From assembly GCA_903872005.1 (NCBI GenBank), contig CAIQJD010000199.1, forward strand, positions 1 through 5,401: DNA of 5,401 bases. The letters are read 5' to 3'. The translations under genes and the position numbers were made by a program. This document shows, one piece after another, positions 616-2,559 of this stretch. Each line of letters begins with the position of its first letter. The first letter of the stretch is position 1. The notes beneath the pieces were generated by a model, which was given only the letters and a program-made list of their open reading frames with translations, did not search any database and was not told the DNA's origin. This stretch comes from an uncultured bacterium. Lineage in GTDB: Bacteria > Chloroflexota > Anaerolineae > JACIWP01.

Positions 616-2072
616 CAGCGCACTCTCCAGCGCGTGCCATCCGGCCCGTCTTCCAGCGCCACGCCCACTTCATTCAACCGATTGCGAATGCGATCCGCCC
701 GCGCGAAATCCTTGCTCTTGCGCGCGTCCTGGCGCAGCTCCACCAACAAATCCAGCAGCGGCTCCAGCAGGCCGGCCTTCTCGCCGCCCCCAAACTGCGC
801 CGGCAGCAGCCCCAGGACATCGCCGGCCAGCGCCCGATACTGCGCCTGAATGGCCGCCAGCGTCGCCGCCGAGAGCGGCGTCCCGGCATTGATCCAGGTA
901 TTGCTCTGCCGCGCCAAATCGAACAACACGCTCAGCGCCACGGCCGTGTTGAAATCATCATCCATGGCCGCCGTGAAGCGCCCCTTCATCTCCTCCAGGG
1001 CCGTTGCTACGGTCGGGTCGGGCGCGCCGGCCGGCGCGCCGGCTTTCGCCAGCGCATCTTCCACCAGCTTGACCGCGCCGTGCAGCCGCTCCAGACCCTT
1101 CGCGGCCGCCTCCAACGCACCTTCCGAGAAGTCAATCGGTGAGCGATAGTGGCTGCTCAAGACGAAGAAGCGCACCACCAACGGCGCGTAGCGCGTGAAA
1201 GCTTCCTTGAGCGTGATGAAATTGCCCAGGGACTTGCCCATCTTCACGCCATTGACCGTCACCATATTATTATGCAGCCAGTAGCGCGCGAACGGCTCGC
1301 CGAACGCCGCTTCGGACTGCGCGATCTCGCTCTCATGATGTGGAAACTGATTCTCCATCCCGCCGCCATGAATATCAAAGGGTTGCCCCAGATACTTGGT
1401 GGACATCACGGAGCATTCAATATGCCAGCCCGGGAAGCCGCGTCCCCACGGGCTGCGCCACTGCAACAGATGCCCCGGCTCGGCCCGCTTCCACAAGGCG
1501 AAATCCGCCGGATTGCGCTTCTCCGGGTTCACCTCGACCCGCGCGCCCTCCTCCTGATCCTCCACCCGCCGGCCGGAGAGCCGGCCGTAACCCGGGAAGC
1601 TCTCCACCGCGAAGTAGACCGACCCATTGGCCGCGTAGGCGTGGCCGGTCGCCATCAGCGACTCGATGAGATCGAGCATCTCCGGGATATGCGCCGTCGC
1701 TCGCGGTGAGATGTCTGGCCGCAGCACGTTGAGCGCATCCATATCCTCAAAGTAGGAGCGCATATACAGCTCCACCACTTCCATCGGCTCGACCTGCTCC
1801 AGCCGCGCCTTCTTGAGGATCTTGTCCTCGCCGGCGTCCGCGTCGTCGGTCAGATGCCCCACATCGGTGATGTTCTGCACATAGCGCACGCGATAGCCCA
1901 GGAAGCGCAGATAGCGCACCATCACATCAAAAGATACGTAGCTCTTGGCATGTCCCAGGTGGGCGTGCCCATACACCGTCGGGCCGCAGACATACATGCC
2001 CACGCGCCCTTCATGAATGGGTGTAAAAATGTCTTTCTGTCGCGTCAACGAATTATAGACCTGCAGCGTCAT
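615..2072 (-). CDS. cysS: Cysteinyl-tRNA synthetase (CysRS)
   Basis: A complete 485-residue class I aminoacyl-tRNA synthetase that activates cysteine with ATP and loads it on tRNA-Cys in the cytoplasm. The Rossmann catalytic core (about 15-310) carries the HIGH motif as HLGH (38-41) and the KMSKS motif as KMGKS (277-281). The zinc site that selects the cysteine thiol is complete by analogy with the E. coli enzyme: C29 (YVCGPTVYG), C220 (WHIECSVMS), H245 and E249 (FPHHESE). The helical DALR/C-terminal region follows, with the typical KSKDFARADRIRNRL stretch (453-466) and EDGPDGTRWRV tail. Length is slightly above E. coli (461); part of the excess is an Ala/Gly/Pro linker (AGAPAGAP, 344-351) encoded by a perfect palindrome. 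The ATG at 2072 is preceded by GGAGG with a 6-nt spacer. The start lies 20 nt inside the upstream GluRS-like ORF and the stop overlaps the rlmB start by one base, so all three are probably cotranslated. Confidence 0.97.
   Translation of the reverse strand: MTLQVYNSLTRQKDIFTPIHEGRVGMYVCGPTVYGHAHLGHAKSYVSFDVMVRYLRFLGYRVRYVQNITDVGHLTDDADAGEDKILKKARLEQVEPMEVVELYMRSYFEDMDALNVLRPDISPRATAHIPEMLDLIESLMATGHAYAANGSVYFAVESFPGYGRLSGRRVEDQEEGARVEVNPEKRNPADFALWKRAEPGHLLQWRSPWGRGFPGWHIECSVMSTKYLGQPFDIHGGGMENQFPHHESEIAQSEAAFGEPFARYWLHNNMVTVNGVKMGKSLGNFITLKEAFTRYAPLVVRFFVLSSHYRSPIDFSEGALEAAAKGLERLHGAVKLVEDALAKAGAPAGAPDPTVATALEEMKGRFTAAMDDDFNTAVALSVLFDLARQSNTWINAGTPLSAATLAAIQAQYRALAGDVLGLLPAQFGGGEKAGLLEPLLDLLVELRQDARKSKDFARADRIRNRLNEVGVALEDGPDGTRWRVR
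623..628 (-). promoter_or_regulatory. Ribosome binding site for rlmB, inside the cysS 3' end
   Basis: The minus strand reads GGAGAG here, ending 7 nt before the rlmB ATG (core GGAG 9 nt away). It supports the start at 615 even though that codon overlaps the cysS stop. Confidence 0.6.
1021..1040. repeat. Perfect 20-bp palindrome inside cysS
   Basis: These 20 bases equal their own reverse complement, with GCGCGCC-type outer arms around a central GGCCGGCC-like core. On the coding strand they span codons 345-351 of cysS, a Gly/Ala/Pro linker between the catalytic core and the helical C-terminal region. The flanking bases (G at 1020 and G at 1041) do not continue the symmetry. It overlaps three copies of GCCGGC, so it may simply be a cluster of that iterated word in a tolerant linker. 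Confidence 0.85.
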
Positions 2073-2559
2073 CCTGCGCCTCCATATCCCACGTTAGCAA
2101 GCGTTCCAAAGTCCGCCGGCGTCCCAGCAGACAGACCACGATCTCCAGGCACGGCCCCTCCACCCGCCCGGTCAGCGCCGCCCGGATCGTCATCATCACC
2201 TCGCGGCCGCGCAGCCCATCTCGCTCCTTCAGATCGGCGCGCAGCGCCTTGAATAGCGCCGTGACTTGCGCCGGCTCCGTCCGTTCCAGACCACGCAGCC
2301 GCCGCGCGAACTCCTGCAAGGCCGACGCGGCGTGCGGCTGTCCCAAGACCCCATCCATGACCGCGCTGACTACCACATCATCGGCGAAGACGAAACGCGC
2401 CGCCGCCGGCGCATCGGCCGGCTCCCCCAGCTCTGGCCCAATGACCTCCGCCAGCTTCGCCAGCCACTCCGCCGGCGTCGCGTAGCCGCCATCGGCCGTC
2501 CAACGCTCCGAGCGGCCGTATGCCGCCATCAACGCGGTCTCCATGCCGGTTACAGACAC
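2053..2559 (-). CDS. Free-standing glutamyl-tRNA synthetase C-terminal (anticodon-binding) domain protein
   Basis: A 168-residue protein matching only the C-terminal part of bacterial GluRS (GltX). Residues 118-154 fit the signature of its last helical domain: GREVMMTIRAALTG, then a GP dipeptide (136-137), then CLLGRRRTLERL. Before it comes the FKALRADLKER helix (103-112), and residues 20-100 fit the preceding helical anticodon-binding bundle. There is no Rossmann core, HIGH or KMSKS motif, so it cannot activate an amino acid. Full GltX is about 470-500 residues; roughly the first 320 are absent. The reading frame is intact, and a GTG at 2559 has GGAGG 8 nt upstream; the ATG at codon 6 would be 23 nt away, so GTG is preferred. 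It starts 15 nt after the PIN/TRAM gene and overlaps cysS by 20 nt. In Bacillus gltX lies between yacL and cysS, so this is probably the remnant of gltX in place, possibly kept as a tRNA-binding protein or as half of a split GluRS. Its function is unknown. Confidence 0.8.
   Translation of the reverse strand: MSVTGMETALMAAYGRSERWTADGGYATPAEWLAKLAEVIGPELGEPADAPAAARFVFADDVVVSAVMDGVLGQPHAASALQEFARRLRGLERTEPAQVTALFKALRADLKERDGLRGREVMMTIRAALTGRVEGPCLEIVVCLLGRRRTLERLLTWDMEAQDDAAGL
2079..2083 (-). promoter_or_regulatory. Ribosome binding site for cysS
   Basis: The minus strand reads GGAGG, 6 nt before the cysS ATG and within the last codons of the upstream ORF. It fixes the cysS start at 2072 and makes the 20-nt gene overlap credible. 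Confidence 0.8.

Follow-up and report, generated by a model that had tools for sequence, protein, structure and literature searches.

A stand-alone GluRS anticodon-binding domain in the gltX position beside cysS

The locus and its orphan domain gene

The stretch of DNA considered here, referred to throughout as the window, comprises 5,401 nucleotides of a contig from an uncultured bacterium of the Chloroflexota (CAIQJD010000199.1). Read along the minus strand, it carries a gene for a PIN-TRAM protein, an open reading frame of 168 amino acids, cysS and an rlmB-like gene (Table 1; coordinates are positions in the window). The 168-residue frame, which we call the orphan, encodes the whole anticodon-binding part of a glutamyl-tRNA synthetase (GluRS) and none of the catalytic part, and it begins at a start codon of its own, preceded by a ribosome-binding site. 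A preliminary description of this DNA had noticed the orphan, an observation that is confirmed far beyond chance, and had read it as a preserved gene, not a piece in decay; this reading is supported by 22 like proteins, by site-specific constraint among them and by the absence of the catalytic part from the window.

Table 1. Features of the window, with the evidence for each
Feature	Position	Strand	Evidence
rlmB-like gene (23S rRNA methyltransferase), truncated by the window edge	1..615	-	ORF list, profile matches
cysS (CysRS carrying DALR and CysS_C domains), the first 20 nt of which lie within the orphan	615..2072	-	ORF list, profile matches
Orphan (168 aa, GTG start), anticodon-binding region of a GluRS	2053..2559	-	ORF, profile, PDB match, model
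GGAGG ribosome-binding site of cysS, 6 nt before its ATG, within the orphan frame	2079..2083	-	sequence
RAALTG...GPCLEIVVCLLG motif, orphan codons 126-146	2122..2184	-	alignment, PDB match
Open frame of 422 aa on the strand opposite the orphan and PIN-TRAM genes	2266..3534	+	ORF list
Codon 43 (Glu), aligned with T. thermophilus GluRS Arg358	2431..2433	-	alignment
W-T-x-D-G-G-Y loop, orphan codons 20-26	2482..2502	-	alignment
GGAGG ribosome-binding site of the orphan, 8 nt before GTG	2568..2572	-	sequence
PIN-TRAM (YacL-like) protein, gene upstream of the orphan; marker of the usual gltX neighbourhood	2575..3636	-	ORF, profile, control regions
Large protein with TMEM260-like (O-mannosyltransferase-like) domain, E 4.5e-34, divergent, leaves the window	3827..5401		profile match

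Several lines of evidence agree on the identity of the domain. Pfam PF19269 (Anticodon_2) matches orphan residues 29-154 at E 3.3e-14, with 53.9 bits against a cut-off of 23.6. The NCBIfam model for the complete bacterial enzyme, gltX_bact (TIGR00464), aligns only over profile positions 344-464 of 470 and reaches 35.3 bits against a cut-off of 289.95, so that the orphan, under the cut-off and without a catalytic domain, does not count as a glutamyl-tRNA synthetase. The top sequence match in the PDB is Thermus thermophilus GluRS, residues 339-463 (E about 9e-8). Modeled alone, the orphan has a confidently predicted fold, and on superposition the model fits the C-terminal portion of solved GluRS structures, as expected of the helical cage that binds the anticodon; the profile and structure matches to GltX that the preliminary description anticipated were thus obtained. 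Nor is the orphan a GluQ-RS (YadB), being an anticodon-binding domain only, without a catalytic core.

The gene is likewise intact and free of internal stops, as had been proposed from its good ribosome-binding site, its unbroken frame and its coupling to cysS. Codon usage in its own frame resembles that of the neighbouring genes (0.21 per codon, where the five alternative frames score between -0.23 and -0.74). A tblastn search with four GluRSs found the orphan (E 4e-13 to 9e-11) and, elsewhere in the window, no match better than E 1.5; no catalytic part or frameshifted GluRS remnant is recognizable there, and the missing GltX N-terminus, whose presence alongside would have told against an intact gene, was looked for in the window and not found. 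Only 15 nt separate the PIN-TRAM stop from the orphan GTG. The close coupling to cysS also stands: the two genes overlap, and the overlap (2053-2072) encodes the orphan's C-terminal DDAAGL, which is common to two relatives, P0002 and P0003, and suggests that their genes overlap cysS too.

Little else in the window bears on function. The antisense frame looks like a by-product of high GC content, and nothing marks it as a gene; no tRNAs or Rfam families were found in the window. A role for the orphan in anti-phage defence was rejected, the sole match being PDC-M02B at 14 bits and E 0.003.

A family of stand-alone relatives

Relatives were collected by a single-sequence search, which picked 10 proteins, the window's own included, from 918 candidates, and by a profile search, which picked 28 from 7997 scored candidates. 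Both were confined to proteins between 0.55 and 1.75 times as long as the query, placing full-length relatives outside their reach, and protein collections show open frames only, such that decayed copies would escape notice. We set aside the window's own piece (P0001), a 91-aa protein that seems to be a piece of a core member (P0020), a 92-aa protein named partial (P0026) and two pieces of ordinary GluRS (P0027 and P0028, the latter with some of the catalytic domain). P0025 stayed in alignment A2 but, resembling an ordinary GluRS end, was excluded from the relatives, the rate test and the residue comparison. There remain 22 relatives of 165-204 aa, all starting with Met or Val, whose stand-alone state is judged from the predicted proteins. 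PF19269 was found in all 11 rows of alignment A1 at E 0.1 or better.

One close relative, P0002, is 75% identical to the orphan. With the window's protein included, the family divides into a core of 18 (pairwise identity 42-89%, mean 52%), in which GPCLE accompanies the W-T-x-D-G-G-Y loop, and a five-member sister subfamily with GT motifs and GPCLG or GPNLG; a structure model of the sister subfamily from its five rows was poor (pLDDT 64.5) and was not used. Gamma-distributed rates fit the alignment better by 191.6 lnL units (22 rows, A2 minus P0024 and P0025; 169 columns), and sites therefore differ strongly in constraint. This protein-level constraint, together with the open frame in the window and a domain that runs to its end in 21 of the 22 relatives, is not what defines a pseudogene; the one odd member is P0024, whose C-terminal tail looks out of frame. 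Several relatives come from contigs of about 1 kb, and for six of like length and make-up the contig measures between 6 and 94 kb (P0002, P0007, P0011, P0012, P0013 and P0015), among them P0007 on 20 kb and P0015 on 94 kb.

Annotation tends to conceal this family behind synthetase names. Only four of the 22 relatives carry a name at all (P0003, P0007, P0019 and P0022), and in each case it is glutamyl- or glutamyl/glutaminyl-tRNA synthetase. P0025 itself is a 135-aa, ordinary GluRS-type anticodon-binding domain on an 82-kb contig; it could be a disrupted gltX or another stand-alone gene that arose independently.

Mobile and viral sequences gave no members. Plasmids and phages yielded no match, nor did viral contigs searched with A1; the sister alignment A3 hit two viral loci, both of which proved to be GltX with its catalytic part. 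Viral contigs scanned with CysRS gave three loci, none with an orphan match, and with PIN-TRAM none. In a search for longer proteins or fusions, the window's protein was placed behind 292 X letters and, among 4756 candidates, none reached E 0.1, although the ordinary GluRSs expected there were missing too: the 35.6 bits of T. thermophilus GluRS would correspond, in a database of that size, to about E 0.003.

The gltX position in control genomes

Control genomes were drawn from the phylum and class of G001, a metagenome-assembled genome titled Bacillota, and not from the phylum of the window. The domain was matched in 85 of 101 genomes of the phylum (91 matches in total) and in 80 of 151 genomes of the class (one match each), at least four genomes being in both sets; the 16 and 71 genomes without a match, in which a GluRS is nevertheless expected, indicate that divergent copies escape. 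Apart from one frame of 266 aa and one of 50 aa, every matching frame is 313 aa or longer. Those of 313 and 266 aa reach a contig end and the 50-aa frame begins at base 8 of its contig, so that none of the 171 match rows holds a stand-alone domain gene inside a contig.

What the controls do reveal is the place where gltX usually lies. Across 12 regions chosen from the 22 best-scoring phylum-control matches, full-length gltX stands upstream of cysS on the same strand in every one, up to 2.8 kb away, and PIN-TRAM precedes gltX in nine. The order PIN-TRAM, gltX, cysS, rlmB occurs in eight of the 12, and the window presents the same four places with the orphan in that of gltX. As for the other four, L018 stops within cysS, L026 stops before PIN-TRAM could appear, L020 has no PIN-TRAM match and L023 has neither PIN-TRAM nor rlmB. 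Ten smaller loci (L003-L012) agree for the most part: cysS lies beside gltX within about 3.4 kb in all but L004 and L008, and the genome of L004 has a cysS further from gltX, seen as L023.

Since the orphan occupies the gltX place within the same four-gene order, loss of the catalytic part of gltX at this very site would be the simplest history, and the orphan seems to be its in-place descendant. That the order is ancestral would follow from these controls and from the gene order of Bacillus, which we take to be the same. This position goes beyond the preliminary description, and it would weaken the linkage to cysS as evidence for a role with CysRS, because descent from a gltX-cysS order accounts for the tie. 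The window also differs in that the orphan follows PIN-TRAM directly, with no gene intervening; where control regions carry both PIN-TRAM and gltX (nine of them), the two matches stand 1.2 to 2.8 kb apart, an interval presumably filled by ispD and ispF. Loss of these genes may belong to the same rearrangement as the change in gltX.

Residues retained and altered

To what extent does the family retain the features by which GluRS reads its tRNA? We compared 23 stand-alone proteins with 12 GluRSs, 11 from control loci (L001, L003-L012) and that of T. thermophilus. Arg126, Gly131, Gly135, Pro136, Leu138, Gly146 and Arg153 are present in all 23 stand-alone proteins, their T. thermophilus counterparts being, in order, R435, G440, T444, P445, L447, G455 and R462. 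Of these, R435, P445 and L447 are taken to have anticodon roles, and R126, P136 and L138, invariant in the stand-alone proteins, would mark the family as putative readers of the tRNA-Glu anticodon.

Other positions have changed. The place of Arg358 is occupied by Glu43 in all 23 stand-alone proteins and in 23 of the 24 rows of A2, P0025 alone having Arg. Among the 12 GluRSs, Arg occurs there in three and Glu in one, and the orphan thus lacks the Arg of a discriminating GluRS. In T. thermophilus GluRS, Arg358 bears on discrimination against tRNA-Gln, whereas changing the same residue in H. pylori GluRS1 had no effect on tRNA-Gln discrimination (PMC3927822). Arg107 and Met122 are found in all 23 stand-alone proteins and in none of the 12 GluRSs, and Cys137 in 22 of 23 versus none. 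All 18 core members share W20, D23, G24, G25 and Y26; the W-T-x-D-G-G-Y loop as a whole is absent from the 12 GluRSs compared, in which single letters occur and the alignment is gapped. On this alignment evidence, the grip on the anticodon loop seems to be kept, with the reading of one base possibly altered or relaxed.

One full-length control GluRS, that of L008, also has Glu in the Arg358 place and an insertion before the RxALTG motif, like the orphan family. Convergence or an old GluRS subfamily could each possibly account for the likeness.

Proposed role and competing explanations

The preliminary description counted a CysRS chaperone, a split enzyme and a tRNA-Glu sensor among the possible roles. 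The role we place first, though at somewhat less than even confidence, is that of a subunit supplying anticodon binding in trans to a GluRS catalytic part whose gene lies elsewhere. Having descended in place from gltX, the protein would still grip the anticodon loop of tRNA-Glu, and probably that of tRNA-Gln, while another gene of the same genome would provide the catalytic part that attaches glutamate. The enzyme would then be a GluRS split by nature, or one assisted in trans, and translation next to cysS would be inherited from the ancestral gltX-cysS order. We rank this role first on two grounds: the anticodon-loop motif is intact, and GluRS lacking its C-terminal part is reportedly stimulated by the free distal domain. 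A more specific version, which we hold somewhat more loosely, is fission of gltX between its two parts, in which the anticodon-binding half stayed in the operon slot to read tRNA-Glu and tRNA-Gln in trans, the change at the Arg358 place perhaps suiting a non-discriminating enzyme.

A number of observations weigh against a trans-acting subunit. The separate catalytic part, and hence the split, is something we infer; no member turned up in the contigs of GTDB r220 (84,980 species) with six exact and two degenerate peptide patterns, these scans returning only the full-length GltX of a metagenome-assembled genome titled Bacillota; and L008 has no cysS next to gltX, its genome lying outside the 12 regions. 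Moreover, the invariant Glu at the Arg358 place and the family-specific R107, M122, C137 and core DGGY loop could equally mean a new job. The latter thought leads to the explanation ranked second and held nearly as probable: a repurposed tRNA-binding protein, recruited from what was left of the old GltX, beside a separate full-length GluRS. It might, for example, bind tRNA-Glu/Gln as a cofactor in the amidotransferase pathway, or act as a regulator or as a tRNA chaperone. Residues fixed in the stand-alone proteins and rare or absent in the 12 GluRSs (E43, R107, M122 and C137, with W20, D23, G25 and Y26 in the core) are what such a change of task would leave behind, and the Glu may signal an altered anticodon preference. 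However, the anticodon-loop motif is kept, as expected for continuation of the old job, and position 358 varies among control GluRSs too, one of which has Glu.

The remaining explanations fare less well. A partner or chaperone of CysRS, in which the domain acts on CysRS or tRNA-Cys, is an improbable reading of the 20-nt overlap, the cysS ribosome-binding site inside the orphan and the possibly cysS-linked DDAAGL terminus of P0002 and P0003; we mark it down because gltX lies upstream of cysS in 12 of 12 regions and linkage is expected by descent, while the CysRS of the window has DALR and CysS_C domains of its own and the terminus is common to only two of 22 relatives. It is more improbable still that the orphan is a functionless, decaying remnant of gltX. 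A truncated gene in the gltX slot and the tail of P0024 (one in 22) are in keeping with decay, but 22 like-sized relatives with 42-89% core identity, common fixed residues and strong rate variation among sites are not, and neither are the orphan's own start and ribosome-binding site. Least credible is an artefact of assembly or gene calling, in which a frameshift or misassembly broke off the end of a normal gltX. The roughly 1-kb contigs of several relatives invite that suspicion; against it are the intact PIN-TRAM gene immediately upstream, the want of a catalytic remnant in the window and the six relatives on longer contigs, and the short frames of the controls sat at contig ends.

Should a new job have been taken on, the family would constitute a new class of free-standing tRNA-binding protein. 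Its relatives across metagenome sequences suggest that the domain works on its own, and a conserved lineage with this added domain as its own gene would offer a natural test of how anticodon reading is coupled to charging, and of whether the two can be uncoupled without loss.

Comparison with known systems

Stand-alone pieces of aminoacyl-tRNA synthetases have precedents, none of which matches the orphan exactly. GluQ-RS (YadB) is a stand-alone GluRS catalytic core without the anticodon-binding domain, so that both are free-standing GluRS pieces and the orphan is the opposite half. Closer to the proposed action in trans is the free distal domain that, in work by Dubois et al. in 2009, reportedly acts in trans on a C-truncated GluRS; that protein is said to be a laboratory construct of the E. 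coli enzyme, whereas the orphan is a natural, conserved gene. Aminoacyl-tRNA synthetases are also split in nature, as in the LeuRS of Aquifex and the AlaRS of Nanoarchaeum. The same principle would apply to the orphan if its catalytic part is encoded elsewhere, albeit in a different enzyme and at a different split point.

Freestanding relatives of synthetase domains that act in trans on tRNA, such as AlaXp, ProXp and YbaK, are editing factors (PMC9976931), whereas the orphan is an anticodon-binding helical domain. On the view taken in PMC3927822, GluRS itself started with a catalytic domain and acquired the one that binds the anticodon only afterwards. In the portions of open-licence papers covered, no family of stand-alone bacterial GluRS anticodon-binding proteins was found described, and a literature search on YqeY found nothing. 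A further close counterpart is the C-terminal region of bacterial GltX (PF19269), which the orphan resembles in predicted fold, in spanning the full region, in the RxALTG...GPxL...LLG motif and in operon position, and from which it differs in having no catalytic domain, its own start, Glu for Arg358, Cys after GP and, in the core, the DGGY loop. What the window presents is a known domain in a new state, stand-alone and conserved, and newly found in the position of gltX.
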